A stretch of DNA of 56,425 bases from Gammaproteobacteria bacterium (GTDB taxonomy: Bacteria > Pseudomonadota > Gammaproteobacteria > Steroidobacterales > Steroidobacteraceae): positions 1-56,425 of the forward strand of contig JAQGOE010000326.1 of the NCBI GenBank assembly GCA_028293725.1. Direction: 5' to 3'. Under the pieces are notes generated by a model that was not told the DNA's origin, searched no databases, and saw only the letters and a list, made by a program, of their open reading frames with translations. A program made the position numbers and the translations under genes. Position 1 is the first letter of the stretch; each line of letters begins with the position of its first letter. Below are positions 31,611 through 51,521 of this stretch, in pieces.

Positions 31611-33185
31611 TCAGAAGCGCAGCACCTTCACGTAGCGTACGTGTGACAACTCCCGCAGCGCCTGCTGGACGCTTTCCGGAACTACCTGGTCCACGCCCAC
31701 GATAGCGATAGCATCGCGCCCTTCCGACTGCCGCCCCAGGTGAAAGGTCGCGATGTTGATATTGGCCTCGCCCAACATCGTGCCGAGTGCGCCGATGAAG
31801 CCTGGCTTGTCCTGGTTGTTGATGAAGAGCATCACCGGATGGAACTCCGCCTCCAGGGGCATTCCCTTCACTTCCACGATCTTCGCGGACCCGGCGTTCA
31901 CTACACCCGCCAAAGTACGCCAGCTGCCGCCGGTAAGGACTCTGATCCGGATCAGCGACCCGTAGATGGGGGATGTTTCCCGTTTCGACTCTGTGAGCGG
32001 GGTGCCCTTCTGCCTGAGCACGTCCGGGGCGGACACCATGTTCACGTCAGGCATCAACGGCCGCATGAGCGAAGCCAGCGCGATCGCGGTGAGGGGCCGC
32101 GTGTTCAGATGTGCGACGTCACCCTCATATTCGATCTCCACCGCCTCGAGGCCGTCGTCGGCGACCTGGCCGGCGAAAGAGCCGAGTTTCTCGATGAGCG
32201 CACTGAAGGGCTTCAGACGAGGCGCTTCCTCGGCAGTGATCGACGCCATGTTGAGTGCGTTGGTCACGGCGCCTGACAACAGGAAGTCCGACATCTGCTC
32301 GGCAACCTGAAGGGCCACGTTTTCCTGCGCTTCGTTCGTGCTGGCCCCGAGGTGCGGAGTAGCCACGAAATTGGGCGCGCCGAACAGGACATTTTCCTTG
32401 GCAGGCTCCGTGATGAATACATCGAAGCCCGCCGCGGCGACCTGCCCATTTTCCAGCGCAGCGCGCAGTGCTGCCTCATCGACGAGGCCACCACGCGCGG
32501 CGTTTACGATGATGACGCCTTTCCTGGTCTTCGCGATAGCCTCAGCGGACAGGATGTTGCGCGTCTTGTCGGTCAGCGGCGTATGCAGCGAGATGACATC
32601 GGAGCGTGCCAGGAGATCCTCCAACTCCACTTTCTCAACCCCGATCTTCACCGCACGCTCGGCAGACAGGAACGGGTCGTAGGCGATGACCTTCATTTTG
32701 AGTGCCAACGCGCGCTCGGCCACCAGGGCCCCGATGTTGCCGCAACCGATCAATCCCAGGGTCTTGGCATACAACTCCACCCCCATGAAGCGGTTCTTTT
32801 CCCATTTCCCGGCTTGGGTGGAGACATCTGCCGCGCCGATCTGGCGCGCTGCGGCAAACAACAGTGCGATAGCGTGCTCGGCGGTCGTGATCGAATTGCC
32901 GAACGGCGTATTCATGACCACGATGCCGCGCGCGGTGGCCGCCGGAATGTCGATGTTATCCACACCGATGCCGGCGCGACCGATCACCTTGAGATTGCGG
33001 GCAGCGGCGATGACGTCCTTGTCGGCCTTGGTGGCCGAGCGTACCGCCAGGCCATCATAGGCCGGGATGATTTTCAACAAGTCCGGCTTCTTCAGCCCGA
33101 CGTTGACGTCAACTTCGAGGCCACGGCTGCGAAAGATATCGAGCGCTCTGGGGCTCAGCTCATCGGCAATGAGAATTTTAGGCAT
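31611..33185 (-). CDS. serA: D-3-phosphoglycerate dehydrogenase
   Basis: A 524-residue enzyme for the first step of serine synthesis, oxidising 3-phosphoglycerate with NAD+. It is the long, type I form: substrate- and nucleotide-binding domains (GLIGCGNIGALVAERA) with catalytic Arg231 (NAARGG), Glu260 (FITEP) and His278 (PHLGAST), then an ASB-like intervening domain (about 320-450) and a C-terminal ACT domain (PGFIGALGTMLGEANINIATF) for serine feedback. Length and residues match the Mycobacterium tuberculosis type. It follows serC by 10 bp, forming a serC-serA operon; its stop is 3 bp from the stop of the convergent SDR gene. Confidence 0.98.
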   Translation of the reverse strand: MPKILIADELSPRALDIFRSRGLEVDVNVGLKKPDLLKIIPAYDGLAVRSATKADKDVIAAARNLKVIGRAGIGVDNIDIPAATARGIVVMNTPFGNSITTAEHAIALLFAAARQIGAADVSTQAGKWEKNRFMGVELYAKTLGLIGCGNIGALVAERALALKMKVIAYDPFLSAERAVKIGVEKVELEDLLARSDVISLHTPLTDKTRNILSAEAIAKTRKGVIIVNAARGGLVDEAALRAALENGQVAAAGFDVFITEPAKENVLFGAPNFVATPHLGASTNEAQENVALQVAEQMSDFLLSGAVTNALNMASITAEEAPRLKPFSALIEKLGSFAGQVADDGLEAVEIEYEGDVAHLNTRPLTAIALASLMRPLMPDVNMVSAPDVLRQKGTPLTESKRETSPIYGSLIRIRVLTGGSWRTLAGVVNAGSAKIVEVKGMPLEAEFHPVMLFINNQDKPGFIGALGTMLGEANINIATFHLGRQSEGRDAIAIVGVDQVVPESVQQALRELSHVRYVKVLRF

Positions 33186-33195
33186 GAGGACATCC

Positions 33196-34374
33196 TTATC
33201 CGGCTGTCTGCAACGGCGCCACGCAGGTGGCGAAGGCCCATTCGAGCCAGGGTGTCAGGGCTTGCAGGTCGCTCTGCTCCACGGTAGCTCCACACCAGAT
33301 GCGCAACCCCGGCGGTGCCGACCGATAGGACGCCGCATCGAGCGCGACACCCTCCTTCTCCAGGACCGCGGCCAGATTCTTGGCAAATTCCGCCTGGGCG
33401 GCCTCGGGCAACGAGCTCACGCGCTCGTCGACCACTTTCAAGCAAACACCGGTGTTGCTGCGAGTCGCGACCACAGGAGCCAGGAACTCCACCCAGGGCG
33501 TCCGGGCGACCCAGTCCGCGAGGACTTTGGCGTTGGCATTGGCGCGGGCCTGGAGCGCTGGCAGTCCGCCGATTCCCTGCGCCCATTTCAAGGCGTCCAG
33601 ATAGTCCTCGGTAGCCAGTAGCGACGGCGTGTTGATGGTCGCACCCTCGAACAATTCCTGATCGAGTTTGCCCTTCTTGGTCATACGGAAAATCTTCGGC
33701 AGCGGCCGCGGCGGCGTGTAGCTTTCCAGGCGAGCCACCGCGCGGGGCGAGAGAATCAACATACCGTGAGCCGCTTCGCCACCCAGGACCTTCTGCCACG
33801 AGTAGGTGACTACGTCGCACTTCGACCACTCGATCGGCTGTGCGAATGCGCCGCTGGTGGCATCGTTGATGGCGAGACCTTCGCGGTCCGCGGGAATCCA
33901 GTCGAAATTGGGGATCTTCGCGCCGGAAGTCGTGCCATTCTGTGTGAACACGATGTCGGCATTTTTGCGCGCCAGCGACAGGTCCGGCAGCGTGCCGTAG
34001 GGACGGCCGACATGAATACGGCAATCTTCGAGCTTCAATTGCTCGGCCGCATCGGTCACCCACTCTTCGCCGAAGCTTTCCCAGGCAAAGATGTCGACCG
34101 GGCGCGCGCCCAGCACCGACCACAACACCATTTCGACCGCGCCGGTGTCGGATGCGGGAACAATGGCGATCTTGAAATCCGCCGGCACACCTAACAGGAT
34201 GCGGGTGAGATCAATGGCTTCTTTGAGTTTGGCTTTTCCGGGTTTCGAGCGGTGTGAGCGCCCTAGCAAAGCACCGTTGAGTGCTTGCAGACTCCAGCCC
34301 GGACGCTTTTTGGTCGGACCCGAAGAGAATCGAGGATCGGCCGGACGGGTGCCCGGCATCGGAACGCGTGTCAT
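33196..34374 (-). CDS. serC: Phosphoserine aminotransferase
   Basis: A 392-residue PLP enzyme converting 3-phosphohydroxypyruvate and glutamate to phosphoserine and 2-oxoglutarate. The PLP lysine is Lys195 in TYSWQKVLGGE; other conserved blocks are RFSSGPTKKRPGWS, LLGRSHRSKPGKAKLKE, FTQNGTTSGAKIPN, INDATSGAF and EGATINTPSLLATEDYLDAL. This is the alphaproteobacterial/actinobacterial subtype (about 390 residues) rather than the short E. coli subtype. GGGAG precedes the ATG. First gene of serC-serA. Confidence 0.96.
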   Translation of the reverse strand: MTRVPMPGTRPADPRFSSGPTKKRPGWSLQALNGALLGRSHRSKPGKAKLKEAIDLTRILLGVPADFKIAIVPASDTGAVEMVLWSVLGARPVDIFAWESFGEEWVTDAAEQLKLEDCRIHVGRPYGTLPDLSLARKNADIVFTQNGTTSGAKIPNFDWIPADREGLAINDATSGAFAQPIEWSKCDVVTYSWQKVLGGEAAHGMLILSPRAVARLESYTPPRPLPKIFRMTKKGKLDQELFEGATINTPSLLATEDYLDALKWAQGIGGLPALQARANANAKVLADWVARTPWVEFLAPVVATRSNTGVCLKVVDERVSSLPEAAQAEFAKNLAAVLEKEGVALDAASYRSAPPGLRIWCGATVEQSDLQALTPWLEWAFATCVAPLQTAG

Positions 34375-34539
34375 CAGTTTGTACTCCCATCCTTACAGAT
34401 GAGCGTCCGCCGTTGGGAGCGGATGGCCCGTCGCGAAGGATAGAGATCCCTCGCGGGGTGTCAACTGGTTTGTTACCCGGAATGTGAAATCGGTCTAATG
34501 CACTTTTTTGTTATGAGCTCAGAACGGGATGGCCGAATG

Positions 34540-36036
34540 TCAGTTCCGAGTCACGGCGTGTGCCTTCGTTCCGTCACGGGAGAACTCGAACTGCACCAAC
34601 CACTGTCGCGAGGCGTGACCGTCGGCGGCAGGGACGAACTTCCATTTGCTGGCGGCTTGGCCGGCTACGCGTGCGAAATATTTGCTCGGGCCGGGAGTCT
34701 CCAGCACGTCACTGATGACGGAGCCCGCCTTGTCGACGGTTACGCGCACCGTCACTTTGACTCGTCCGTGAATGGTTTGTCGGGCACTTAGTGGGACCGT
34801 GGGGATCTCTTCGTGCAGCACCGCGGATGGCAGGCCCGACTCGGCGTCGGTAGGTCTTGAATGGTTCACGGGCGCACGAGTCGGCGGCACGTGGTCATTG
34901 GAATCTGCGGAAGCGGACGGCGCGACCGGCGGGAGGGCCGGCTGCGCGCCGGATGTTTGGGCGGCGGCTGTTGGGGAGGTGCTCGTTGGGGCGGCGGTAG
35001 AGGCCGTCTCAGTCATTGGGGCGTCCGTGTTGGAACGACCCTTGAACCAATAAACACCCAACCCAACGATCGCCAGTATCGCGACCACGACCGCAATCGG
35101 CACGGCAGGCGACTTCCGTTCAGGAGACACTTCCGCAGCCGGCTCGGAGTTCAGTACCGCACGGATCACCAGGCGAGTGGGAGTTTCCGCGGCGGGAGGC
35201 TTTGCGACATCCGCGGGTGGAGGAGTCGAAACGGCGGGCTCCGTGGCTCCCGGCTTGAGCCAGCCCTGGAGGTCGGCAACGCTGGGCCGTTGCGCCGGGT
35301 TGCGAGCCAGGCAGCGCCGCACGATGTCAATGAATGTCACCGGAAAGTCCGTCGGCAACACTACATTCTCGCCGCGCTCGCCGGACCTGGAAGGGGGCCG
35401 TTGAGTCAGGGCCTGGCAAAGGGTGACACCCAGCGCCCAAATGTCACCGGAAGTCGAGAAGCTACCGTCCCGGGCCTCCGGAGGGTTATACATGGACAGC
35501 GAGCCGATGCTGGCAGTCGCTTCGCCGGCGGGACGGATGGTGTCGCTCGCCAGCTTGAGTTGGTTGTCGATGACCAGGATGTTGGATGGCTTCAGCTGGC
35601 CCTGCACCAGGTCCCTGGAGTGTAAAAATCCCAGCGCGTCCAAGGTCAGCGGCAACATTTCCCGCACTTCGGCTTCGCTCAGCGGGCGGTGCTGCAGCAA
35701 CTGGCCGAGATTCTGCTCGGCGTAATCCATGACCACGTAGAGGTAATGCAACCCACCGATCTGGCAACGGCCAGCTTCGAAAAGGCGGATCAGGTGGGGA
35801 TGCAAGGCCGCGGCGGCATGCCAGTGCGATAGCTGTGATTCAGCCAACGTGGGGATGGCGGGAACCAGCTTAAGGGCAGCGCGGGGAAGGCTTTGCGGGG
35901 CGTACTCGGTGAGGAATACGCCGCTGTGATCCGAACTGCCGAGACAGCGGTGCAATGGCAAGGTTCCATTGACGACACGCCCTTCCAATTGTGTCCAGAC
36001 CTCGCTCATGGGTGGCCTTTTGGCTTCCACGTCCAT
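34540..36036 (-). CDS. Membrane-anchored pseudokinase fused to a TonB C-terminal domain
   Basis: A 498-residue protein. Residues about 20-262 form a Ser/Thr kinase fold: ALKLVP with Lys56, YVVMDYAEQNLGQLL hinge, and QLKPSNIL with Asn152. The catalytic loop HRD is replaced by Gln145-Gly146-Gln147, DFG reads Ser164-Asp165-Thr166, and the glycine loop is degenerate, so phosphotransfer is unlikely. NPPEARD (APE-like) and GDIWALGVTL keep the fold. A Pro/Ala linker precedes one membrane helix (312-331), then a Pro/Ser/Thr periplasmic linker and a TonB-like C-terminal domain (about 415-490: VTVRVTVDKAGSVISDVLETPGPSKYFARVA). A start at 36009 (MSEVWTQ) is possible. The role is unknown; signalling to or energising an outer-membrane partner is conceivable. 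Confidence 0.85.
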   Translation of the reverse strand: MDVEAKRPPMSEVWTQLEGRVVNGTLPLHRCLGSSDHSGVFLTEYAPQSLPRAALKLVPAIPTLAESQLSHWHAAAALHPHLIRLFEAGRCQIGGLHYLYVVMDYAEQNLGQLLQHRPLSEAEVREMLPLTLDALGFLHSRDLVQGQLKPSNILVIDNQLKLASDTIRPAGEATASIGSLSMYNPPEARDGSFSTSGDIWALGVTLCQALTQRPPSRSGERGENVVLPTDFPVTFIDIVRRCLARNPAQRPSVADLQGWLKPGATEPAVSTPPPADVAKPPAAETPTRLVIRAVLNSEPAAEVSPERKSPAVPIAVVVAILAIVGLGVYWFKGRSNTDAPMTETASTAAPTSTSPTAAAQTSGAQPALPPVAPSASADSNDHVPPTRAPVNHSRPTDAESGLPSAVLHEEIPTVPLSARQTIHGRVKVTVRVTVDKAGSVISDVLETPGPSKYFARVAGQAASKWKFVPAADGHASRQWLVQFEFSRDGTKAHAVTRN

Positions 36037-36220
36037 AGCTCATACCTCGAAATAGATATCGCCGAAGATAGCACTCGGCGCGTACTTTACTGAGCCTGAC
36101 TCGGCGCCGGGGCTTAAGCCGCGGCTCGGCACTCGCGGCGCAATTAGAAGCGCGACGTCGAACTTCCTTCAAGTGTCACTGCGATAATCTGTGGACCCAC
36201 TCGCTTTCCTGGAGCCTGCC

Positions 36221-37090
36221 ATGAGACTGACGAACCTCGGCGTCTGGGCCGCCACCGACGGCCTTTCGGCGGCGGAAGCCGCCACTTTCGCGAAACGCGT
36301 GGAAGCGTGGGGCTATGGAGTCCTGTGGACTCCGGAGGCCGTGGGCCGCGAGGTATTTTCCGCCTCCGCATGGCTCCTGGCCAACACGACTCGTCTCATT
36401 GTTGCGAGCGGAATTGCCAACATCTACGCGCGTGACGCGTTTGCGGCGGCAGCGGCGCAAAAAGGGCTCAACGAGCAATCGGGCGATAGATTCCTGCTCG
36501 GGCTGGGCGTTTCGCACATCCCCTTGGTGAAGGACATGCGACAGCATGAATACGGCAAGCCGGTCGCTACGATGCGTGCCTATCTCGAGGGCATGGCCGC
36601 TGCGCCTTACAAATCCATAGCGCCTCGGTCACCGCCGCAGACGGTACTGGCCGCGCTCGGGCCAAAGATGCTGGAGCTTGCCGGCGAGCGGGCGGACGGC
36701 GCCCACCCGTATAACGTTCCTCCGGAGCATACCCGTGAGGCCCGCGAAATTCTTGGAACGAACAAACTTCTATGCGTTGAGCAGGCAGCAATCCTGGAGA
36801 CTGACGGGAGCCAGGCGCGTGCCCTGGCCCGTCAATTCCTGGAGATTTATATGGGCCTGCCCAACTATGTGAATAACTGGCGGCGCCTGGGGTTCTCGGA
36901 CCCGGATTTTGCGGGAGGCGGCTCGGACCGCTTGATTGACGCGGTCGTCGCCTGGGGCGACGAAAAAGCGATTCGTAAACGGATCGACGAGCACTGGCAG
37001 GCAGGGGCGGATCACGTCTGCGTGCAGGCGATCGGCGCGGGCGGGCGGGCCGACGAGCGTTTGCTGAGCGCCCTGGCGCCACACACCTAG
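36221..37090 (+). CDS. Luciferase-like (LLM) F420-dependent oxidoreductase, TIGR03620-like
   Basis: A 289-residue TIM-barrel oxidoreductase. It begins MRLTNLGVWAATDGLSAAEAATFAKRVEAWGYGVLWTPE (GGAG upstream of ATG 36221; a GTG at 36191 is in frame) and shows TTRLIVASGIANIYARD, FLLGLGVSH and LAALGPKMLELAGERADGAHPYNVPPEHT, the layout of the probable F420-dependent subfamily found in mycobacteria. It probably uses F420 to oxidise or reduce an unknown substrate. Its place at the head of the F420 operon (79 bp before cofC) makes F420 the likely cofactor; FMN use cannot be excluded from sequence alone. Confidence 0.85.
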   Translation: MRLTNLGVWAATDGLSAAEAATFAKRVEAWGYGVLWTPEAVGREVFSASAWLLANTTRLIVASGIANIYARDAFAAAAAQKGLNEQSGDRFLLGLGVSHIPLVKDMRQHEYGKPVATMRAYLEGMAAAPYKSIAPRSPPQTVLAALGPKMLELAGERADGAHPYNVPPEHTREAREILGTNKLLCVEQAAILETDGSQARALARQFLEIYMGLPNYVNNWRRLGFSDPDFAGGGSDRLIDAVVAWGDEKAIRKRIDEHWQAGADHVCVQAIGAGGRADERLLSALAPHT

Positions 37091-37169
37091 ATCGGCGGCC
37101 GGGCGCTTGAGCAGGAGGCTGGTCGAGCATGACCCGCATGAGTATTCTGGAGCTGAACTGGAGACGTGG

Positions 37170-37805
37170 ATGAGCTTAACCGTACTGGGTGATCTGACGC
37201 GCCGTCGGGGCGCATGCGCTCTGATTGCAATCAAGGAGCGCGCTCGCTGCAAGACCCGGCTCGCTGACGTGCTCGCGCCGCCAGAGCGTATCGATCTCGT
37301 GAGATCCATGCTGACAGTGGTGCTGGCGGCCGCGGGAAACGCGCAAACGGTGCACCAGGTCATTGTGATCAGCCCGGAGCGCGATACGGTACCCGCCGAA
37401 ATCCCGGTGCTTGCCGATACGGGCGAATCGCTCAACACCGCACTCGTTCAGGCACACACCCTGGTGCGTGAATTCGGCTGCCACGAGATTGTGGTGCTAC
37501 CCGCGGACCTGCCGCTGATCACCTCCGCCGAAATCGATGAGCTCGTGCGTGCCGCGCGCGCCGGCGGCTTCGCGATGGCCACGGATGCGGCGGGCGTCGG
37601 TACCAACGCGCTCTGCCTGATGTCAACACAACCCTTCCGCTTTCAATTCGGCCCGGACAGCCGGCGCCTGCATTTAGAGGAGGCGCAGCGATTGGGATCG
37701 AGCCCGCAGGTGGTGCACCTGGCGGGCCTCGAATTCGATGTGGACTCCTCCGCCGATCTCGAACTGTTGGATGAACAGAAATGGCTGACGCGACTTCGGG
37801 CTTGA
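37170..37805 (+). CDS. cofC: 2-phospho-L-lactate (or phosphoglycerate/PEP) guanylyltransferase CofC/FbiD
   Basis: A 211-residue nucleotidyltransferase that makes the guanylylated three-carbon donor for F420 side-chain assembly. Family marks: ALIAIKERARCKTRLADVL (nucleotide-binding start), VVLPADLPLITSAEID and AGVGTNALCL, followed by RFQFGPDSRRLHLEEA. ATG 37170 has GGAG 6 nt upstream; the longer reading from 37107 adds non-family residues. The true substrate (phospholactate, PEP or 3-phosphoglycerate) differs among lineages and cannot be read safely here. The 3' end overlaps cofGH by 25 nt, showing tight coupling. Confidence 0.92.
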   Translation: MSLTVLGDLTRRRGACALIAIKERARCKTRLADVLAPPERIDLVRSMLTVVLAAAGNAQTVHQVIVISPERDTVPAEIPVLADTGESLNTALVQAHTLVREFGCHEIVVLPADLPLITSAEIDELVRAARAGGFAMATDAAGVGTNALCLMSTQPFRFQFGPDSRRLHLEEAQRLGSSPQVVHLAGLEFDVDSSADLELLDEQKWLTRLRA

Positions 37806-40204
37806 GCGCGCTGCTGCGCGCCGTGGAGGCGGGCCGGCGGCCGGATTCGGCGGACGCGTTGGCTGTCCTGCCTGATGCTCCGCTTGCGGAGTTGCTACCC
37901 GTCGCCGAGTCATTGACGTTGGCCGGGTTCGGCGACGTGGTGACCTACTCCCGCAAAGTGTTCATCCCGCTGACGCAACTGTGTCGGGATGTCTGCCACT
38001 ACTGCACGTTCGCCAAAGCGCCGCGCCAGCTCAAAGGGGCCTACCTCTCGCCCGACGAAGTGCTGGCGATCGCGCGCGCGGGTGCCGCCGTCGATTGCAA
38101 AGAAGCTCTGTTCACACTCGGGGACAAACCCGAGGAGCGCTATACAGCCGCCCGCGCTGCGCTGGATGCCGCGAATGCCACCAGCACGTTGGAATATCTC
38201 GAGCGGATGGCGAAGCTCGTACTCCAGGAAACGGGTCTACTGCCCCATCTCAACCCGGGGGTCATGGACGCCGGGGATTTGCAGAGGCTTCGGCCGGTCA
38301 GCGTGTCGATGGGTTTGATGTTGGAGAGCGCTGCGGAGCGGTTGTGCCAGCGAGGGGGGCCTCATTTCGGGTCTCCGGACAAGCGACCGGAGCGGCGCCT
38401 GGCGACGTTGCGGGCGGCGGGCGAACTGCGCGTCCCCATGACTACGGGGCTGCTGATCGGTATTGGCGAGACGCGGAGCGAGCGCATTGAGTCGCTGTTG
38501 GCGCTGCGTGAACTCCACGATACGCACGGGCATTTGCAGGAGCTGATTATCCAGAATTTCAGGGCGAAGCCGGGAACCCGGATGGCCAAGGCTCCCGAGC
38601 CCGCTCTCGAGGAGCAGCTGTGGACGATTGCGGTGGCGCGGCTGCTGTTCGGGTCCGGGATGTCGATTCAAGCACCGCCCAACTTGCAACCCGAGGGGTT
38701 GGCCAGCCTGGTGCGTGCCGGAATCAACGACTGGGGTGGGGTGTCGCCGGTGACGCCAGACCATGTCAATCCGGAAGCGCCCTGGCCGCATCTGGAGGAT
38801 CTCGCGCGCAGTACCGACACGGCCGGGAGAGTCCTGGTGGAGCGACTGGCGCTGACACCAGCTTATGCGGCGCGGCCCGAGATATGGACGGATTCGGCTA
38901 TCACGCCGCGCGTGCGGCGGGCCAGCGACAGTCGCGGGTTTGCGCGGCCGGATCGTTGGTTTGCCGGCTCGGGGGCGGCGTTGCCCGCGGTCGCGGAGCG
39001 TTGGTCGATGGGTTCGGGAATTGGCCACAGCAAGAAAACAGCTGCGATCATCGCTGCGGCGCGCGCCGGACACGCTCTGAACGAGTCAGACATCGTGCGT
39101 CTCTTCAGCGTGGAAGGCCGCGACCTTGACGAGGTGATCGCCGCGGCGGATCAGTTGCGCCAGGAATCGGTCGGCGACACGGTCACCTACGTCATAAACC
39201 GGAATATCAACTACACCAACATCTGCCTGTACCACTGCGGGTTCTGCGCGTTTTCGAAGGGCCGCGGGGCTGCGGATCTGCGCGGACCGGCTTATAACCT
39301 CGAGCTCGACGAGGTCGCGCGCCGCACGGTCGAGGCGGCGGCGGTCGGTGCGACCGAGGTCTGTCTGCAGGGAGGCATTCATCCGAGCTTCACGGGGCAG
39401 ACCTACCTGAGTATCGTCCGCGCGGTGAAGGAAGCTGTGCCATGGATGCACGTGCACGCCTTCTCGCCATTGGAAGTCAGTCATGGCGCCAGCACCCTTG
39501 GACTGCCGCTCGCGACCTACCTGGAGAAGTTGCGGGATGCGGGACTCTCGACATTACCGGGAACGGCCGCCGAGATCCTGGATGACGAGATTCGGGACAT
39601 TATCTGCCCGGACAAGTTGCGTACGGACGAATGGTTGGAAGTGATCGCTACCGCTCACCAAGTGGGTCTGCGCACGACGTCCACGATCATGTTTGGACAT
39701 GTGGAGCAGCCCGTCCACTGGGCGAGGCATCTGCAGCGCCTGCGCGCCCTGCAGACCCGTACGGGCGGTATCACCGAATTTGTACCGCTGGGATATGTGC
39801 ATATGGAAGCGCCACTGTGGCGCAAAGGTCGAACGCGGTCGGGTCCCAGTTTTCGTGAGGCCGTGCTGATGCACGCCGTGTCCCGGCTCGTCCTGCATCC
39901 GCTGATCAAAAACATCCAGACGTCCTGGGTGAAGATGGGCGCGCAGGGCGCGGCCATATGCCTGAGCGCGGGCGCCAACGATCTGGGCGGGACGCTGATG
40001 AACGAGTCGATTACCCGAGCCGCGGGTGGCGTTCATGGACAGGAGCTCGACGCATCGAAGCTACAGGCATTGGCCCAAAGTATCGGTCGCACAGCCCGTC
40101 AGCGCACCACGTTGTACGGCGCTCCTGACGAAGAGCATGTAGACGAAGAGCACCTCCGCTCCCGGGAAGCGCCCTCTTCGTCCGATCTGGCAACGGTTGG
40201 CTGA
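37781..40204 (+). CDS. fbiC: Bifunctional FO synthase CofG-CofH (FbiC)
   Basis: An 807-residue fusion of two radical SAM enzymes that build FO, the F420 chromophore, from tyrosine and a ribityl-diaminouracil. The CofG half comes first with the cluster motif CRDVCHYC (Cys68, Cys72, Cys75), and the CofH half carries CLYHCGFC (Cys482, Cys486, Cys489). Further marks are GEAL/KEALFTLGDKPEE, HLNPGVMDAGDLQRLRPVSVSMGLMLE, LQGGIHPSFTGQTYLSIVRAVK and GTAAEILDDEIRDIICPDKL. Full-length fusions are typical of Actinobacteria; archaea and cyanobacteria have separate proteins. Start at 37781 lies inside the 3' end of cofC. Confidence 0.97.
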   Translation: MADATSGLSALLRAVEAGRRPDSADALAVLPDAPLAELLPVAESLTLAGFGDVVTYSRKVFIPLTQLCRDVCHYCTFAKAPRQLKGAYLSPDEVLAIARAGAAVDCKEALFTLGDKPEERYTAARAALDAANATSTLEYLERMAKLVLQETGLLPHLNPGVMDAGDLQRLRPVSVSMGLMLESAAERLCQRGGPHFGSPDKRPERRLATLRAAGELRVPMTTGLLIGIGETRSERIESLLALRELHDTHGHLQELIIQNFRAKPGTRMAKAPEPALEEQLWTIAVARLLFGSGMSIQAPPNLQPEGLASLVRAGINDWGGVSPVTPDHVNPEAPWPHLEDLARSTDTAGRVLVERLALTPAYAARPEIWTDSAITPRVRRASDSRGFARPDRWFAGSGAALPAVAERWSMGSGIGHSKKTAAIIAAARAGHALNESDIVRLFSVEGRDLDEVIAAADQLRQESVGDTVTYVINRNINYTNICLYHCGFCAFSKGRGAADLRGPAYNLELDEVARRTVEAAAVGATEVCLQGGIHPSFTGQTYLSIVRAVKEAVPWMHVHAFSPLEVSHGASTLGLPLATYLEKLRDAGLSTLPGTAAEILDDEIRDIICPDKLRTDEWLEVIATAHQVGLRTTSTIMFGHVEQPVHWARHLQRLRALQTRTGGITEFVPLGYVHMEAPLWRKGRTRSGPSFREAVLMHAVSRLVLHPLIKNIQTSWVKMGAQGAAICLSAGANDLGGTLMNESITRAAGGVHGQELDASKLQALAQSIGRTARQRTTLYGAPDEEHVDEEHLRSREAPSSSDLATVG

Positions 40205-40227
40205 TTGGAATAAAAGGGGAAACCGCC

Positions 40228-41232
40228 GTGCTACGACTGGGTTACAAGGCATCCGCGGAACAATTCGGGCCGAGCCAGTTGCTCGGTTTTGCGGTTCTCG
40301 CCGAACAGCGAGGCTTTGATTCCGTATTTATCAGCGATCATTTCCAGGGTTGGCGCCACACCGGTGGCCACGCGCCTTTCTCGATGTCGTGGCTGGGCGC
40401 GGTCGGCGCGCGTACTTCGCGCATCGTTATGGGAACCAGCGTGCTCGCACCCACATTCCGCTACCACCCCGCCATTGTCGCGCAAGCCTTTGCAACACTG
40501 GGCGTCATGTTTCCTGAGCGAGTGATTCTCGGAGTGGGAACCGGCGAATCGCTCAACGAAGTGCCGGCCACGGGGATGCCGTGGCCTGAGCCCAAGGAAC
40601 GTACCGCACGGCTCAAGGAAGCGGTCGCGTTGATCCGACAACTTTGGAGCGAGCCGCGAGTGAGTTTCCGTGGCCAGTACTATCGGACCGAGAAGGCGAC
40701 GATCTACGACAAACCCGACGTGTTGCCGCCGATCTATGTAGCCGGCGCCGGTCCGGTAATGGCGAAGTACGCGGGCCAATTCGCCGACGGTTTTATCTGC
40801 ACCAGCGGCAAAGGGACCGAACTATACGAGAGTACGTTGCTCCCCAACTACACCGCGGGCGTTCAGGCCTCGGGACGGGCGCCGCAGGATGTTGACATGA
40901 TGATCGAGGTGAAGGTGTCGTTCGACAGCGATCCGCAGCGCGCCCTGGACGATACCCGCCATTGGGGGGCGCTGGCGCTCTCGCCCGAGGAAAAAAGCTC
41001 GGTCGATGATCCACTGGAAATGGAACGTCTCGCGGACAAGGTGCCCGTCGAGCGCGCGGCGAAGCGTTGGATCGTGTCGACGGATCCCGATGAGCAGGTG
41101 GAAAGGATCCGGCCGTACGTCGAGATGGGTTTTCGGCATCTCGTGTTTCACGCACCAGGACCCGATCAGGTACGATTTCTGAACCTGTACGCCGACCAGG
41201 TCTTGCCCCGGCTGCGTGCGGCATTTGGTTGA
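40228..41232 (+). CDS. fgd: F420-dependent glucose-6-phosphate dehydrogenase
   Basis: A 334-residue luciferase-like enzyme that reduces F420 with glucose-6-phosphate. It starts at GTG 40228 (GGGGA upstream). The sequence is strikingly like mycobacterial FGD1: LGYKASAEQF, DHFQGWRHTGGHAPFS, GTSVLAPTFRYHPA, FLGVGTGE-type LGVGTGESLNE, and DGFICTSGKG. Residues described for the M. tuberculosis enzyme (His40, Trp44, Glu109) are present as His38, Trp42 and Glu107, and the CTSGKG phosphate-binding segment is intact. It sits within the biosynthesis operon, 23 bp after fbiC, so cofactor synthesis and reduction are made together. Confidence 0.94.
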   Translation: MLRLGYKASAEQFGPSQLLGFAVLAEQRGFDSVFISDHFQGWRHTGGHAPFSMSWLGAVGARTSRIVMGTSVLAPTFRYHPAIVAQAFATLGVMFPERVILGVGTGESLNEVPATGMPWPEPKERTARLKEAVALIRQLWSEPRVSFRGQYYRTEKATIYDKPDVLPPIYVAGAGPVMAKYAGQFADGFICTSGKGTELYESTLLPNYTAGVQASGRAPQDVDMMIEVKVSFDSDPQRALDDTRHWGALALSPEEKSSVDDPLEMERLADKVPVERAAKRWIVSTDPDEQVERIRPYVEMGFRHLVFHAPGPDQVRFLNLYADQVLPRLRAAFG

Positions 41233-41248
41233 GCGAGTTCGATATTTC

Positions 41249-42022
41249 ATGAGCTCCGCTGTCGAGCTGCGAATCACGGCTCTGCCCGATTTTCCGCACG
41301 TTACCGCGGGGGACGATCTCGCGGCCATGACCGCGGACGCCTTACGCCGCGGTGCCCTGCAACTGCACCCGGACGATGTGTTGGTATTTGCGCAGAAGGT
41401 GGTCTCCAAGGCCGAAGGGCGGCGGATCGACCTGACTACGGTCACTCCGGGTGCCCGGGCGCTCGAAGTCGCCCAGACCGTGCAGAAGGATCCGCGCCTG
41501 GTGGAACTGGTTTTGCGCGAATCGCGCCGGATTGTGCGCGCCGCGAAAGATGTCCTGATTGTCGAGCACCGGCTGGGATTGATCATGGCCAACGCGGGGA
41601 TCGATCAGTCCAATGTCGCCGACCCGGCGAGTGGCGAATTCGCACTACTGCTTCCCGAAGATCCGGATGCCAGCGCGGCCGGCTTGCGCGAGCGGCTGCG
41701 CGCGCTAACCGGCTGCGCACCGGGTGTGGTGATCAGCGACAGTTTCGGCCGTCCGTGGCGTGTCGGAACGATCGGAGTTGCAATCGGTTGCGCCGGGGTT
41801 CCCGCAACCCTGGACCTTCGTGGCAGCACGGACATGTTCGGTCGTCCTCTACGAGTAACCGTTGTGGGTCACGCGGATGAGGTCGCCTCGGCGGCATCGA
41901 TAGTGATGGGACAGGCGAGCGAAGCCCGGCCCGTAGCGCTGGTGAGAGGCCTGGTATCGCGGGAACCTGCGCAGCCTGCCGCCGTACTCATCCGCCCCCA
42001 ACAGCAGGATCTTTTCCGTTGA
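41249..42022 (+). CDS. cofE: Coenzyme F420-0:L-glutamate ligase CofE
   Basis: A 257-residue GTP-dependent ligase adding glutamates to F420-0. Marks: DVLVFAQKVVSKAEGRRIDL, RSVRAAKDVLIVEHRLGLIMANAGIDQSNV-like segment, PGVVISDSFGRPWRVGTIGVAIGCAGV and DMFGRPLRVT. It is the single-domain form, lacking the C-terminal nitroreductase-like domain (FMN-dependent dehydro-F420 reductase) of mycobacterial FbiB. ATG 41249 is 16 bp after fgd; no strong ribosome-binding site is visible, suggesting coupling. The stop overlaps cofD by 4 nt. Confidence 0.95.
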   Translation: MSSAVELRITALPDFPHVTAGDDLAAMTADALRRGALQLHPDDVLVFAQKVVSKAEGRRIDLTTVTPGARALEVAQTVQKDPRLVELVLRESRRIVRAAKDVLIVEHRLGLIMANAGIDQSNVADPASGEFALLLPEDPDASAAGLRERLRALTGCAPGVVISDSFGRPWRVGTIGVAIGCAGVPATLDLRGSTDMFGRPLRVTVVGHADEVASAASIVMGQASEARPVALVRGLVSREPAQPAAVLIRPQQQDLFR

Positions 42023-42966
42023 GCGGTCACGTGGTTGCGCTATGCGGCGGCGTGGGGGGCGCCAAGCTCGCGCACGGATTGTCCCTGGCGCTGGCGGCCG
42101 AGCCGGACAGTCTCTCGATTATTGTCAACACGGGCGACGACTTCCGACACCTCGGCCTGAGTATCGCGCCCGATCTGGATTCGGTGCTGTACGCCTTGGC
42201 CGGACTATCCGATCCGGTCAGGGGCTGGGGCCGGCGGGAGGAGACCTGGCGCTTCATGGAGGCGCTGCGCGGCCTGGGCGGCGAGAGTTGGTTTCAACTC
42301 GGCGACGGCGATCTGGCTGTGCACGTGGAGCGCAGTTGGCGACTGGCCCAGGGTGCCACGTTGAGTGAAGTCACCGCCCATTTTTGCGAGGCCCTCGGCA
42401 TCACCGCCCGGGTGCTGCCGATGAGCGACGATCCAGTGCGCACGCGGGTGCTGACCCCGGAAGGGTGGCTCGATTTCCAGGATTACTTCGTGCGGCGGCA
42501 ATGTCAGCCGGCCGTACGCGAATTCATGTTTTCCGGTGCCGAGACCGCACGGGCGCAGCCGGAGGCGCTTGCCGCCCTACAACGGCGCGATCTGCGGGCG
42601 ATTGTCATTTGTCCGTCCAATCCCTTTGTCAGTGTCGAGCCCATCCTGGCCGTGCCGGGTATCCGGTTAGCATTGCAGCAGGCAGAGGCACCGGTCGTGG
42701 CCGTTACGCCTATCATTGGAGGCAAAGCGATCAAAGGGCCCGCGGCCAAAATGATGACTGAGCTGGGACTTGACGTAAGCCCGGCCGCGGTCGCCCGGCG
42801 CTACGCGGGACTCATCGACGGGTTCGTGGTGGATCAGACGGACCCGGTTCCCGAGTCGCTACCGGGTGTTACGTTTGTACAGGCTGCAACACTGATGAGC
42901 AGCGTCGAGGACCGATTGTGGCTGGCCCGCGCGGTGTTGCGGGCAGCCGACGCACTTTTTGCATAA
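42019..42966 (+). CDS. cofD: 2-phospho-L-lactate transferase CofD (FbiA)
   Basis: A 315-residue transferase that attaches the phospho-three-carbon unit from the CofC product to FO, giving (dehydro-)F420-0. Marks: VVALCGGVGGAKLAHGL (nucleotide-binding start), SIIVNTGDDFRHLGLSIAPDLDSVLYALAG, WFQLGDGDLAVH, LPMSDDPVRTRVLT, and VICPSNPFVSVEPILAVPGI with TPIIGGKAIKGPAAKMM. The start is TTG 42019 overlapping the cofE stop (TTGA); GTG 42031 is an alternative. Order cofE-cofD with overlap indicates one transcript. If PEP is the donor, a dehydro-F420 reductase must be encoded elsewhere. Confidence 0.95.
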   Translation: MSGHVVALCGGVGGAKLAHGLSLALAAEPDSLSIIVNTGDDFRHLGLSIAPDLDSVLYALAGLSDPVRGWGRREETWRFMEALRGLGGESWFQLGDGDLAVHVERSWRLAQGATLSEVTAHFCEALGITARVLPMSDDPVRTRVLTPEGWLDFQDYFVRRQCQPAVREFMFSGAETARAQPEALAALQRRDLRAIVICPSNPFVSVEPILAVPGIRLALQQAEAPVVAVTPIIGGKAIKGPAAKMMTELGLDVSPAAVARRYAGLIDGFVVDQTDPVPESLPGVTFVQAATLMSSVEDRLWLARAVLRAADALFA

Positions 42967-42978
42967 GTGGAGTACATC

Positions 42979-43434
42979 ATGGCTGAACCGAGTGGATCTA
43001 AAGAACTTCCGGATTGGATCAAGAATCACCTGGCGCGCTACATCGCCACCGACGGCGAGGAGGGCTACCTCTGGGATGCGGCTCTCGGCGGTGGCAAGGG
43101 CATGGTCCCTACCCTGTTGCTCACTACAACCGGACGTAAGTCCAGCCGCGAGCTCACCCTGCCGTTGATTTTCGGCACGTCCGGCCCGGACTATGTCGTG
43201 GTGGCCTCCAAGGGCGGCGCGCCGGCACATCCGGCCTGGTATCTGAATCTCGAGGCCAACCCGACAGTGAAGGTGCAAGTCAAGGCCGACAAATTCACCG
43301 CACGGGCGCACACGGCCGACGCGCAGGAACGCGCCGCGCTTTGGCCCAGGATGGTGGAAATTTATGGGCCCTACGCCGATTACCAGAAGAAGACCGACCG
43401 GCAGATTCCGGTCGTGGTGTTAAAGCGGGTGTGA
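42979..43434 (+). CDS. Ddn-like F420H2-dependent nitroreductase/quinone reductase family protein
   Basis: A 151-residue split-barrel protein of the deazaflavin-dependent nitroreductase family. Typical segments: LLLTTTGRKSSRELTLPLIF, YVVVASKGGAPAHPAWYLNLEANPTVKVQV, and RAALWPRMVEIYGPYADYQKKTDRQIPVVVL. The YxxYxxY spacing in the last segment corresponds to the three tyrosines of M. tuberculosis Ddn (130/133/136). Members reduce quinones, nitro compounds or other substrates with F420H2 at the membrane. ATG 42979 has GGAG 8 nt upstream. Last gene of the F420 operon, 12 bp after cofD; overlaps the convergent LLM gene by 15 bp. Confidence 0.92.
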   Translation: MAEPSGSKELPDWIKNHLARYIATDGEEGYLWDAALGGGKGMVPTLLLTTTGRKSSRELTLPLIFGTSGPDYVVVASKGGAPAHPAWYLNLEANPTVKVQVKADKFTARAHTADAQERAALWPRMVEIYGPYADYQKKTDRQIPVVVLKRV

Positions 43435-44481
43435 CGCGCGCCTGAGTTGGGGCAGGACCTGCCTGCCGTAGAAGTCGAGGACCTTCTGTTGGTCGGGCTG
43501 GCCGGAGTGGATGTTGACGATGCTGACGCCACTGTCGAACAGCTTTTGGATCGCCGTCGCGTGCACGGCAGGATCTGTGCTGACCGTCCAGTCCCCGTAG
43601 ACCTTGGGTAGAGGTAGATCCTCCCGGGCCTGACGCTCGATCTGCGCCGGGTCCGGGATGTTGTGATAGCCTTTGAAGGCCTGCGGGATGAAATTCCACA
43701 GTCTGGCTGCGGTCTGAGCCTCGCTCGGTTCGCCGACGACCACGAAGATCTCAACCAGCACCGGCATCTCGCCGGGATTTTTTCCCGCCGCGCGGGCGCC
43801 GCTTTCCCACTCGTGCCTGGACTCCTTCCAGGTATTCGGGTCGGTGATGAGGCCGTCGCCATGTTGGCCGGCAAGCCGCATCGCCTTCGGGCCATTGGCG
43901 GCCAGCAGCAGTGGCACAGGCGATGCCGGAGGATCGTACAGCCTGCCGCTCACCGTGTAATGGGCACCTTGGTGTTGCACCGGATTGCCGCTCCACAACT
44001 GGCGAATAATCGTTACGGCTTCGATGAGTCGGTCCCAGCGCTCCCGCCAGGCGGGCCAATAGCCGGTCGCGGCCTGCTCATTGAGGGCTTCGCCCGAGCC
44101 CAACCCGAGGAAGATCCGACCGGGATAAAGCTGACTCAACGTGGCAAACGCCTCGGCCACAACTGCCGGACTGTAACGTAGCGTGGGGCAAGTCACGGTC
44201 GGCCCCATCCAGACGCGGCGAGTTTGCTGCCCCAGGGCGCCGAGTGTGACCCACGCCTCCCCGCAGTGGCGCTGGTTGGCCTGCCAGGGTTGGAAATGAT
44301 CACTGGTGGCCAGCAAGTCGAAACCCGCCTGCTCGGCGGCGGCACCGAGGCGCAGCAGCTCGGGAACCGGGAACTGCTCGTGGGCCAACATGAAGGCAAT
44401 CATGCCTTTGTGTAGGGATTCGGCCGGAATGGTGGCAGCCGGGGCCTCCGCCGGGGCCGCGGTTGGGAATCTGTGGAACAT
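43420..44481 (-). CDS. Luciferase-like F420-dependent oxidoreductase, Fgd/fHMAD-like
   Basis: A 353-residue relative of Fgd. ATG 44481 has a perfect AGGAGGT 6 nt upstream, so the in-frame extension to 44604 is rejected. The first 26 residues are Ala/Pro-rich, and then the domain begins GMIAFMLAHEQFPVPELLRLG. It has SDHFQPWQ with His62 and Trp66, and LGLGSGEALNE, so the F420 site matches Fgd. The G6P-binding CTSGKG is replaced by LITDPNTWKE, so the substrate is not glucose-6-phosphate. The closest known type is the F420-dependent hydroxymycolic acid dehydrogenase group. Convergent with the F420 operon and presumably a user of the cofactor. Confidence 0.88.
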   Translation of the reverse strand: MFHRFPTAAPAEAPAATIPAESLHKGMIAFMLAHEQFPVPELLRLGAAAEQAGFDLLATSDHFQPWQANQRHCGEAWVTLGALGQQTRRVWMGPTVTCPTLRYSPAVVAEAFATLSQLYPGRIFLGLGSGEALNEQAATGYWPAWRERWDRLIEAVTIIRQLWSGNPVQHQGAHYTVSGRLYDPPASPVPLLLAANGPKAMRLAGQHGDGLITDPNTWKESRHEWESGARAAGKNPGEMPVLVEIFVVVGEPSEAQTAARLWNFIPQAFKGYHNIPDPAQIERQAREDLPLPKVYGDWTVSTDPAVHATAIQKLFDSGVSIVNIHSGQPDQQKVLDFYGRQVLPQLRRASHPL

Positions 44482-44627
44482 TGAGCACCTCCTGACAGTC
44501 GTAAGTCGCAGGTTTTGTGCCGTCAGGAAACATATGACAGGGGTGAGCGGCGCCGCTGCCGGCGCGGAACACCAGCGCAGGTGGCACGTTGATGCGCCAT
44601 ACATGGTCGTTCATCAGGTTGACAACG

Positions 44628-44960
44628 ATGTTTACAGCGAAAAATGGGCGGCGCACGCGCAAATCCGCCGAAGCCGAGCTTCGAAACCTGGTCTCCAGCT
44701 CAGAAGAGCTTCTCAAGACCTTGAACGACCAGGGTGGCGATGCCGTGGCCGCCCTACGGGTAAAGCTGAGCAGGAATATTTCTACGGCGAAGCAGCAAAT
44801 GAACGTGCTGGGTGACGCGTTGGATTCAATCTCCCGGGAAGCGGCCGAGGAGACCCGTGGCTTCGTCTCCCGCCGGCCGTGGCTGACGGTTGCGTTAGGA
44901 ATTGTGTTGGGCGTCGCGGTAGGAACGGCATTCGCGGCCGTTGGCTCGGGACGCCGCTAG
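44628..44960 (+). CDS. DUF883 (ElaB/YqjD-type) membrane-anchored protein
   Basis: A 110-residue protein with an N-terminal amphipathic helical segment (RKSAEAELRNLVSSSEELLKTL ... ALRVKLSRNISTAKQQM) and a single C-terminal membrane helix (WLTVALGIVLGVAVGTAFAAV) ending in a basic tail. This is the ElaB/YqjD/DUF883 layout: stress-induced proteins anchored in the inner membrane, some of which bind ribosomes in E. coli. ATG 44628 is chosen at MFTAKNGRRTRK; the reading from 44589 adds unrelated residues. Divergent from the LLM gene over 146 bp. Confidence 0.88.
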   Translation: MFTAKNGRRTRKSAEAELRNLVSSSEELLKTLNDQGGDAVAALRVKLSRNISTAKQQMNVLGDALDSISREAAEETRGFVSRRPWLTVALGIVLGVAVGTAFAAVGSGRR

Positions 44961-44967
44961 ACAACAA

Positions 44968-45009
44968 AACCCCGCAGGCGGCGCCCCCGGAAGCGGGCGC
45001 TGTGGGGTT
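44968..45009 (+). terminator. GC-rich hairpin after DUF883 gene
   Basis: Outer arms AACCCC (44968-44973) and GGGGTT (45004-45009) with an inner GCGCCC/GGGCGC stem. It starts 7 nt after the DUF883 stop. A run of T after it is lacking, but the position and stability fit a terminator. Confidence 0.6.
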
Positions 45010-45150
45010 CCCATTCGACCTTTGCTGTCGCTGGCGATTTGCTAGGAGTTTGGCCAGGACGGGCGCCGTTCGGATGTCTGCTTGAAGACTCTCCACCCCG
45101 GACAGGATAGCGTTCGCGCCATCCATACTCATCCGGGACGGGAGATACGC

Positions 45151-45720
45151 ATGCTCAGCCGCTGGTCCGCCGCAATCCGTTACATTACCGCCGCATTTGC
45201 CGCAATCGTACTGGTCGCATCCGGCCGGCCCGTTCCGGCCGCGGCTGCGGAAAAAAGCGCTGCCGGCCCTTGTGACACGCCACAACACCACCAATTTGAC
45301 TTCTGGGTCGGGGATTGGCAGGTGTTCGAGGCCAAAAGCAACCAGCTAGTGGGCTATGACCGGGTGGAAAAGCATTCACACGGCTGTATCGTCCAACAAA
45401 ACCTGACCATGATCACCGACTTGTACCGCGGACCCGAGGTTGGGTACCGGATGTCGGGCATCGGCGTCAACCGTTTCGACGGGGAAAACTGGCTGGAGCT
45501 CTGGGCGGACGATACCTGGGGGGCCATTGCGCTGCGAGGAACGCTGGATTCACACGGCTCGATGGTGCTGACCACACTCACCCCGTCGCGCAACCGGGAC
45601 CTCAGGTTGGTATGGGAGCAGCGGCCCGACGGCAGTGTCCGGACCCTCCAGTACGTCGCGCCGGCCGGGAGTGGGAAGTGGGAGCTGTTTGGAGAGCTCA
45701 TTTATCGCCCAAACCGGTGA
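45151..45720 (+). CDS. Exported DUF1579-like protein
   Basis: A 189-residue protein with a signal peptide (YITAAFAAIVLVASGRPVPAAAA). The mature domain starts QFDFWVGDWQVFEAKSNQLVGYDRVEK, the hallmark opening of DUF1579-type beta-barrels, and continues as regular beta strands (WLELWADDTWGAIALRG; LTTLTPSRNRDLRLVWEQ). Such barrels often bind small ligands; function here is unknown. GGGAG before ATG 45151 supports this start rather than the in-frame reading from 45082. It stands alone, with no clear operon partner. Confidence 0.8.
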   Translation: MLSRWSAAIRYITAAFAAIVLVASGRPVPAAAAEKSAAGPCDTPQHHQFDFWVGDWQVFEAKSNQLVGYDRVEKHSHGCIVQQNLTMITDLYRGPEVGYRMSGIGVNRFDGENWLELWADDTWGAIALRGTLDSHGSMVLTTLTPSRNRDLRLVWEQRPDGSVRTLQYVAPAGSGKWELFGELIYRPNR

Positions 45721-45850
45721 AATCGGTGGGGTTGGACCCGGCCGGGGGTGAAACATTCATACAAAATCAACCTAAAGAGTGATCAACAGGGGGTGTTGAA
45801 CGGCCTCTCAACGTGTATCATTCGCCGGTTGTCTATACTTGGAGATGATG

Positions 45851-46048
45851 ATGGCCAAACGTCCGTCGAGTGATGGAGCCTCCTGGAGCGCCAGCGAGCT
45901 CAAGACCCTGAAGAAGTTAGCCAGCAATGGCACCGCCGCAGATGCGGCGAAGGCATTGGGCCGTACGGCCGCCGCCGTCCAGCAGAAGGCGATGCGCAGC
46001 GGTATTTCGTTCCGTAAGAGTCGGCGGGCCCCCGCCAAGAAGAAATAG
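45851..46048 (+). CDS. Small basic helix-turn-helix-like protein
   Basis: A 65-residue protein. The core SWSASELKTLKKLASNGTAADAAKALGRTAAAVQQKAMRSGISF resembles a short Myb/SANT- or homeodomain-like helix-turn-helix, and the C-terminus is very basic (RKSRRAPAKKK), as in histone-like DNA-binding tails. GGAG lies 6 nt before ATG 45851; two more ATGs just upstream overlap that site. Similar small proteins are found in many proteobacteria with no assigned role. It is followed by two hairpins. Confidence 0.78.
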   Translation: MAKRPSSDGASWSASELKTLKKLASNGTAADAAKALGRTAAAVQQKAMRSGISFRKSRRAPAKKK

Positions 46049-46055
46049 GCTCGAC

Positions 46056-46102
46056 GTGTCCGAGGACCCTGGCCGTGCAATAGCCGGCCGGGGTCAGGAC
46101 AC
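46056..46102 (+). terminator. Long imperfect hairpin after the small basic protein gene
   Basis: GTGTCC (46056-46061) pairs with GGACAC (46097-46102), continuing inward through ACCC/GGGT and GGCCG/CGGCC around a 9-nt loop. It starts 7 nt after the stop codon, as expected for a terminator, but has no U-tract. Confidence 0.55.
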
Positions 46103-46110
46103 AAGCGGTT

Positions 46111-46128
46111 GGGGGGGATAACCCCCCC
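46111..46128. terminator. G7-ATAA-C7 hairpin in convergent intergenic region
   Basis: Seven G (46111-46117), loop ATAA, seven C (46122-46128). It lies in the convergent region between the small basic protein gene and creA and may back up the preceding terminator or act on the creA transcript. Confidence 0.45.
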
Positions 46129-46239
46129 TCTCCTGCCTCAACACCCACTCGGGTGACCCCCGGACAAACTCACGAATGGTGAGTAAAACGCCAACAATGG
46201 TCGTTTTTTCCAATAATTCCGGGGGTGCGTTGCGCTAGT

Positions 46240-46740
46240 CTAAGAGGTTGGCTGAGGCGCCACCCACCCCATGACGGGCACGGAGCTGATGGAGTTCTTG
46301 GGACTGCCAGCGACCACCCGGTCGCTGTAGGAAACATAGACCAGAACATTGCGGCCGCGATCGTAGAAGCGGACGACGTGAAGTTGCTTGAAAAGCAGGC
46401 TGCGGCGCTCGTCGAAGACCGACTCGCCATCCTTGAGGTCGGTCGGGATCTTTATGGGCCCGACCTGGCGGCAGGTGATGCTGGCGTCGCTCGTGTCCTC
46501 CGCCAGACCCAAGCCACCCTTGATACCGCCGGTCACGGCGCGGCTGATATGACAGGCGACACCCTGTACCTTGGGATCGTCGAATCCATCCACCGCGATC
46601 TTGTCATTGGGTCCTAACCAGCGGAAGTTCGTGCTGACCCGGCCTGTCGTACCTCGCTCGGGCCGGCTCCATATCCATAAAACCAGGATGAGGAACAGAG
46701 CCAACACGATCACCACGACAGTCGTACCGATTTTACGCAT
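46240..46740 (-). CDS. creA: CreA family periplasmic/membrane protein
   Basis: A 166-residue protein with an N-terminal hydrophobic segment ([18 protein letters not shown]). The remainder matches CreA very closely: [78 protein letters not shown] and [13 protein letters not shown]. CreA is conserved in proteobacteria and its function is unknown; it is not part of a creABCD set here. GAGG lies before the ATG, 9 bp after the exonuclease gene, so the two are co-transcribed. Confidence 0.96.
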
Positions 46741-48564: not shown

Positions 48565-48620
48565 GGATTCCCCGCTTCGCGCGGCTGTGACCCGATCGGC
48601 CACCGCGATCGATTTAGCAC

Positions 48621-48646
48621 AATTCCGTCATCCCTATGACGGAATT
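48621..48646. promoter_or_regulatory. 26-bp palindrome in the divergent regulator/oxygenase region
   Basis: AATTCCGTCAT (48621-48631) and ATGACGGAATT (48636-48646) are perfectly complementary around CCCT. It lies 57 bp upstream of the regulator start and 78 bp upstream of the oxygenase start, with no gene end nearby, so an operator is more likely than a terminator. It is AT-richer than its surroundings. The bound protein is not known; the adjacent GbdR-like regulator is the obvious candidate. Confidence 0.65.
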
Positions 48647-48723
48647 TTACAGGTAACGCCGGCATGCGGATCCTAATGTGAGCCGCGACGGGGCCCTTTG
48701 AACCGAGCCTTCGAGGTGACGCG

Positions 48724-51502: not shown

Positions 51503-51521
51503 GAGGATTGAGGCGACGCCT

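Follow-up and report, generated by a model that had tools for sequence, protein, structure and literature searches.

Gene content and layout of the F420 cassette

The 56,425-nt contig JAQGOE010000326.1 (the window, whose numbering is used for all gene coordinates and spacings) carries at 36221..44481 a compact cassette for coenzyme F420, which consists of eight open reading frames (ORFs) in the order LLM-cofC-fbiC-fgd-cofE-cofD-ddn on the plus strand, followed by a convergent Fgd-like gene on the minus strand. Families were called by the curated cut-offs of Pfam and NCBIfam and solved structures were compared via the best PDB matches; a curated Pfam cut-off was exceeded by the products of all eight ORFs. 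The first gene (36221..37090) encodes an LLM-class oxidoreductase, a candidate F420H2 user, scoring 324 bits against the TIGR03620 (MSMEG_4141) family (cut-off 220) and matching PF00296. Downstream, cofC (37170..37805, alternative TTG start at 37107) is assigned as 2-phospho-L-lactate (2-PL)/phosphoenolpyruvate (PEP) guanylyltransferase by TIGR03552 (155 over 105) and contains an FGPDS motif, and fbiC (37781..40204) as fused CofG-CofH FO synthase by PRK09234 (1135 bits, cut-off 1018). The F420-dependent glucose-6-phosphate (G6P) dehydrogenase gene fgd (40228..41232; TIGR03554, 480.5 over 420; PDB 5lxe and 3b4y) is followed by cofE (41249..42022, alternative GTG start at 41216), encoding the F420-0:L-glutamate ligase (TIGR01916, 261 over 181), and by cofD (42019..42966, alternative GTG start at 42031) for the 2-phospho-L-lactate (or PEP) transferase (TIGR01819, 292 over 257). 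The last plus-strand gene (42967..43434, alternative ATG at 42979) encodes a Ddn-like F420H2-dependent reductase of the FDOR-A type (PF04075, 143 bits, cut-off 22; TIGR00026, 106 over 46). The convergent gene (43420..44481, minus strand, alternative longer ATG start at 44604) encodes an Fgd-family LLM enzyme (TIGR03557, 236 over 210), a candidate F420-dependent dehydrogenase of another substrate.

The sequence-only reading of this DNA had described seven same-strand genes plus a convergent Fgd-like gene in this order, tightly spaced from cofC onward and uniting synthesis, F420 reduction and candidate users in one block. ORFs and curated family scores agree with this order, the family models confirm the single block, here in a proteobacterium, and the coordinates from cofC onward yield either overlaps or gaps, the gaps being at most 23 nt. 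The cofC and fbiC genes overlap by 25 nt, fbiC and fgd are separated by 23 nt, fgd and cofE overlap by 17 nt (or leave a gap of 16 nt with ATG 41249), cofE and cofD overlap by 4 nt, and cofD and ddn abut without a gap (12 nt with ATG 42979). The distance between the LLM gene and cofC is 16 or 79 nt, set by the choice of the cofC start, and ddn and the convergent gene share 15 nt at their 3' ends.

Enzyme identities and active-site residues

CofC, CofD and CofE all lie above their NCBIfam equivalog cut-offs, and both radical-SAM halves of FbiC are present, each with a CX3CX2C motif as read by eye in the protein. The cofE product remains below two other CofE/FbiB models (NF009809, 245 vs 274; NF009810, 210 vs 304) and has no FbiB C-terminal domain. 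In Fgd all eight checked residues are kept (E13, H40, W44, E109, N112, K198, K259 and R283 in Mycobacterium tuberculosis numbering); we take this set, following the Fgd1 literature, to comprise five residues of the F420 site and three that bind the G6P phosphate. The Ddn-like protein is a PF04075 member whose best PDB matches, 3r5l, 3r5p and 3r5r, are solved Ddn structures.

According to a pairwise alignment the convergent enzyme keeps the five F420-site residues and none of the three G6P-phosphate residues. Since these residues are missing and both equivalog cut-offs are missed (TIGR04465 for the F420-dependent hydroxymycolic acid dehydrogenase, fHMAD, 316 vs 470; TIGR03554 for Fgd, 224 vs 420), it is regarded as an Fgd-family enzyme and not as an Fgd. 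Its best solved relative is an fHMAD (9fp4); an identity as fHMAD was ruled out by the TIGR04465 score. Read by eye for a Tat signal, a feature of fHMAD, the protein from the longer start contains one RR pair with no hydrophobic run after it, and the protein starting at 44481 contains no RR pair.

Related clusters and the side-chain precursor

Genome contigs were scanned for FbiC, which gave at least 583 confirmed relatives; the best 80 loci, chosen by similarity to the fused query, were kept, and most of their titles name Alphaproteobacteria, Gammaproteobacteria or simply Proteobacteria. In 79 of them FbiC reads through as a single open frame, so that the fusion gains no support as the mark of an actinobacterial source that it had been taken for. 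The 80th, L051 from a Halieaceae metagenome-assembled genome (MAG), has one internal stop, through a split or disrupted gene or an error in the assembly. At E 1e-15 cofE was found in 59, cofD in 61 and cofC in 32 of the 80 loci, several of which are cut by contig ends. Compact F420 clusters are normal in proteobacteria, and cofE-cofD-cofC-fbiC clusters of this group hold the synthesis genes together as the window does.

The gene order recurs in L001 (Gammaproteobacteria MAG JOPF125, JASHSK010000009.1), which has the same run LLM-cofC-fbiC-fgd-cofE-cofD-ddn at 62-79 percent identity. It differs in that one more ORF separates cofD from ddn, and no relative of the window's convergent Fgd-like gene was seen there apart from L001's own fgd. 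Of the 80 loci L001 alone has a Ddn homologue, and LLM relatives are confined to L001 and, at 41 percent, L017. A similar cassette lies on plasmid 2 of Aromatoleum aromaticum EbN1 (NC_006824), where a PNPOx-family protein, a fused fbiC, an F420 reductase, cofE, cofD and cofC likewise stand in one run; unlike the window, this cassette belongs to a betaproteobacterium, is carried by a conjugative plasmid, surrounded by transposases, and uses the NADPH:F420 reductase Fno (npdG). The mycobacterial and rhodococcal F420 system (FbiC, FbiA/B/D, Fgd, Ddn) shares its enzyme families with the window, including Fgd and FDOR-A, whereas the window has FbiC and Fgd of separate clades, lacks the FbiB C-terminal domain and unites the genes in one operon.

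Two loci titled Klebsiella pneumoniae MAG (L049 and L073) carry an FbiC that falls among Halieaceae and other Gammaproteobacteria, and these bins are probably mislabelled. L144, in the genome of L066 (a Verrucomicrobiaceae MAG), is a 64 percent relative of the convergent Fgd-like enzyme.

Proteobacterial F420 synthesis is also known from the 3PG-F420 pathway of Mycetohabitans, and the window's operon might by analogy make such a non-standard cofactor, fed by 3-phosphoglycerate (3-PG) from the serA-serC neighbourhood. A serA gene, whose product uses 3-PG, does lie 3 kb away and the cassette has no dehydro-F420 reductase. However, in the report on that pathway (PMC8764529) a CofC that uses 3-PG is marked by S or T at the position of Mrhiz S162, and alignments place the G of FGPDS at this position in the window, which is the 2-PL/PEP type. 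Moreover, no serC and one weak serA match were detected among the best 80 FbiC loci. We consider this alternative highly improbable, and the supply of 3PG-F420 synthesis by serA was rejected on the CofC residue: given the glycine, 2-PL or PEP would be expected as the CofC substrate and 3PG-F420 would not be expected. In the related loci the deciding position is G in 51 of 60 loci read, D in eight and N in one. The D/N-type loci (L024, L026, L029, L035, L039, L040, L042, L057 and L060, from Pseudomonadales and related MAGs) fit neither the G nor the S/T type, and their F420 side-chain precursor may differ.

Co-occurrence and choice of the F420 reductase

The occurrence of the cassette genes was determined in an even draw of 369 genomes from the class to which the L001 genome belongs; three equal-size searches with recurring genome handles were taken as this one draw, whose central genome, G001, had been chosen for its cassette. 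FbiC was found in 14 of the 369 genomes (E 1e-150, with no more than two candidates scored in each). PF04075, the Ddn family, exceeded its cut-off in eight genomes, all among these 14, and in none of 14 control genomes; Fgd (E 1e-60) was found in three, again all among the 14. The hypergeometric probabilities, which include no correction for kinship, are 3.8e-13 for PF04075 within the FbiC set (1.0e-11 without G001) and 4.4e-5 for Fgd. FDOR-A genes in this sample thus occur only beside F420 synthesis genes. Within the order to which G001 belongs, 54 of 147 genomes matched FbiC at E 0.001, with three reaching no better than E 1e-4 to 1e-6.

In most related clusters the slot of Fgd is held by Fno. 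With EbN1 NpdG as tblastn query (E 1e-15) and at least 55 percent identity demanded for Fgd, the best 80 FbiC loci comprise 48 with Fno, nine with Fgd, none with both and 23 with neither (Fisher 1.2e-4). Whole-genome searches of 24 FbiC genomes for TIGR01915 (Fno) gave ten above the cut-off, none of them among the nine Fgd genomes, where G001 showed two weak matches (Fisher 0.002); the Fgd genomes of L028 and L041 lay outside this search, and G189, one of the 15 others, lay outside the whole-genome search for Fgd. Conversely, 47 of the 48 genomes with Fno beside FbiC were searched for Fgd at E 1e-60 and none had it, and the same query recovers Fgd in G001, G094, G096 and G532. Five of the 15 FbiC genomes outside the Fgd group have neither reductase at cut-off, which leaves room for a third F420 reductase. 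At least eight changes of reductase type are counted on the best FbiC tree (62 rows). Testing Fgd and Fno as a pair on this tree was circular, as every row entered had one of the two, and was not used as evidence.

These patterns suggest, as a tentative proposal that we hold with some doubt, a widespread but little-described F420 economy in Gammaproteobacteria, in which Fgd and Fno would be interchangeable, mutually exclusive modules and the Fgd version would feed F420H2 via FDOR-A into the quinone pool. If true, this would give Gram-negative bacteria their own version of the mycobacterial G6P-F420-menaquinone route. The exclusion of Fgd and Fno provides a testable rule for the charging of F420.

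Origin of the cassette

The sequence-only reading had seen a self-contained, portable cassette of actinobacterial-type source. As a rival explanation this would make it a recently acquired mobile island. The compact, self-contained cluster would suit such an origin, as would the EbN1 precedent and the fact that the 15.7 kb of L001 share no window gene beyond the cassette. Phylogenies of FbiC and Fgd, part of the check proposed for this claim, place the window outside the actinobacterial clades. The FbiC tree (96 rows picked for their similarity to the window, quick method, SH-aLRT support) unites Rhodococcus, Nocardia, Nonomuraea and Paenarthrobacter in a separate clade (100 percent); an outer set of seven comprises these four actinomycetes, Thermomicrobium, the alphaproteobacterium Leisingera and the actinobacterium Miltoncostaea. 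The window groups with L001 (99) and then with G123 (98) in a mainly proteobacterial set, and an eight-row set including a Planctomycetota MAG follows at the next fork (95). In the Fgd tree (31 rows, deeper forks open, some very long branches) three actinobacterial sequences form a separate clade (100/100) and the window falls into a 13-row clade with Steroidobacteraceae proteins (99/81). Correspondingly, its Fgd shares 59-60 percent identity with actinobacterial Fgd (Nocardia, Rhodococcus) vs 79-96 percent with L001 and metagenomic relatives. With FbiC and Fgd covered by trees that hold few actinobacterial rows, an actinobacterial donor is not supported.

Portability found no support either: GC content stays at 0.60-0.65 across the window with no step, no tRNA was detected in the window, no direct or inverted repeat of at least 20 bp occurs in 35000-46500, and no transposase or integrase was found among the 29 of 45 predicted window genes scanned with Pfam. 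A recent mobile acquisition from actinobacteria is therefore hardly credible. On EbN1 plasmid 2 the cassette (L156, 185492-199687) is flanked by IS256-, IS5- and IS630-like transposases and represents a portable F420 cassette; 60 plasmid records match the window's FbiC at E 1e-50, and in 56 the match spans 80 percent or more of its length.

Host lineage

The closest named relatives of three window proteins were used to place the host, with names available for three of the 120 listed rows in each case. They share 98, 98 and 95 percent identity for SerA, 83 percent (all three) for Fgd and 62, 62 and 61 percent for the M61 peptidase, whose relatives are distant, and all nine belong to Steroidobacteraceae or Gammaproteobacteria. 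One named Fgd relative resides on a 1.12-Mb contig (P0102).

The host might instead be an alphaproteobacterium, from a class in which F420 producers and Fgd have been published, if the Steroidobacteraceae names on related metagenome contigs were binning errors. Just upstream of serC the window has a serC leader (Rfam RF00517, 45.5 bits). This leader was detected in ten of 17 SerC loci from F420 genomes, all ten among the 15 titled Alphaproteobacteria or their families, vs none of six gammaproteobacterial loci with the same SerC type. SerC reaches up to 66 percent identity, and SerA 59-68 percent in 14 of these 17 F420-genome loci (42 percent in the one gammaproteobacterial locus, unseen in the other two) vs 38-44 percent in the six gammaproteobacterial loci. 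Against an alphaproteobacterial host stand the nine named relatives, including the Fgd on the long contig, and the grouping of FbiC with L001 and G123, both from the Gammaproteobacteria draw. We judge this alternative unlikely. The alphaproteobacterial type of the serC-serA pair may reflect an old transfer or a naming problem, and a Steroidobacteraceae-like gammaproteobacterium with an old alpha-type ser pair is the likely host. A cross-class transfer between an alphaproteobacterial host and the gammaproteobacterial L001, an idea that came from the SerA and SerC matches, was dropped on the named relatives of SerA, Fgd and M61.

Predicted pathway

Taken together, curated family scores, PDB matches, Fgd residues, the gene order of L001, the FbiC clade, named relatives, co-occurrence and the Fgd/Fno pattern argue that the cassette is very probably an F420 operon that looks chromosomal and would make, reduce and use the cofactor in a soil proteobacterium, the likeliest host being a gammaproteobacterial member of the Steroidobacteraceae. 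The operon is real and is probably working. Gene identities and order, the kept residues, the tree positions of FbiC and Fgd and the co-occurrence patterns are shown by the data; cofactor production, substrates and any respiratory or detoxifying role are inferred from family knowledge. In the predicted route FbiC would make FO, CofC would activate 2-PL or PEP with GTP, CofD would couple the CofC product to FO, and CofE would add glutamates to give F420. Fgd, in the slot mostly taken by Fno, would reduce F420 with G6P, and the Ddn-like FDOR-A enzyme would oxidize F420H2 with quinones or compounds resembling them as acceptors. Further users or suppliers of F420H2 may be the LLM protein and the convergent Fgd-like dehydrogenase.

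Several points weigh against this assignment. A dehydro-F420 reductase (the FbiB C-terminal domain) is required only on the PEP route; the NCBIfam scan found none in the cassette, and TIGR03553 was above cut-off in none of the 24 related F420 genomes (weak matches in five) and in none of the 14 controls. In this weak test no enzyme was thus recognised for the last synthesis step, should PEP be the substrate. The operon showed no promoter-like site, which has little weight at this GC content. Six of the 14 gammaproteobacterial FbiC genomes have no PF04075 protein and eleven no Fgd, so that Ddn-type and Fgd enzymes are not obligatory. The serC leader with serC-serA (31611-34433), of alphaproteobacterial type, sits badly with a Steroidobacteraceae host. 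Finally, what can be said of Fno, a dehydro-F420 reductase and the quinone type in the host is limited to this contig.

Relation to published F420 systems

F420 enables reductions at low potential and has uses in biodegradation and in the activation of drugs. The sequence-only reading had assumed a lineage without known F420. For proteobacteria at large this does not hold, as F420 production was demonstrated in Alpha- and Betaproteobacteria according to a 2021 review (PMC8498797); it stands for Gammaproteobacteria to the extent that the review does not contain the word. The same review names Actinobacteria and Chloroflexi only for the Ddn/FDOR family. Further reports describe F420 gene clusters whose order varies among eight brine-pool MAGs from several phyla, with a betaproteobacterial cluster cited there (PMC5108811), a link of F420 synthesis to soil and slow growers (PMC10432406), and bog MAGs with cofC, cofD, cofE and fbiC in a sentence that names Proteobacteria and Actinobacteria (PMC8359052). 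The sole mention of Gammaproteobacteria in PMC11104420 concerns genome editing. In a search that left most subscription journals outside, no literature pairing Steroidobacteraceae or Steroidobacter with F420 and no title devoted to F420 in Gammaproteobacteria was found, which does not prove absence. The new part is modest: genes for F420 synthesis and FDOR-A in the under-described class Gammaproteobacteria, with Fgd as a reductase that has been little described in proteobacteria, and the finding that Fgd and Fno were not seen together. As a compact operon for synthesis, G6P-driven reduction and use, the cassette could be tested in Gram-negative laboratory hosts.

Neighbouring genes

Directly upstream of the operon a divergent gene (34540-36009) encodes a serine/threonine-kinase-like protein with a C-terminal TonB-type domain. 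Further downstream, 47581-55615 likely represents a choline-O-sulfate/betaine cluster with genes for an AraC-type regulator, a Rieske oxygenase, a GMC oxidoreductase, a class II aldolase, a choline-sulfatase-like sulfatase and a glycine-betaine ABC transporter; no link to F420 was seen for this cluster.

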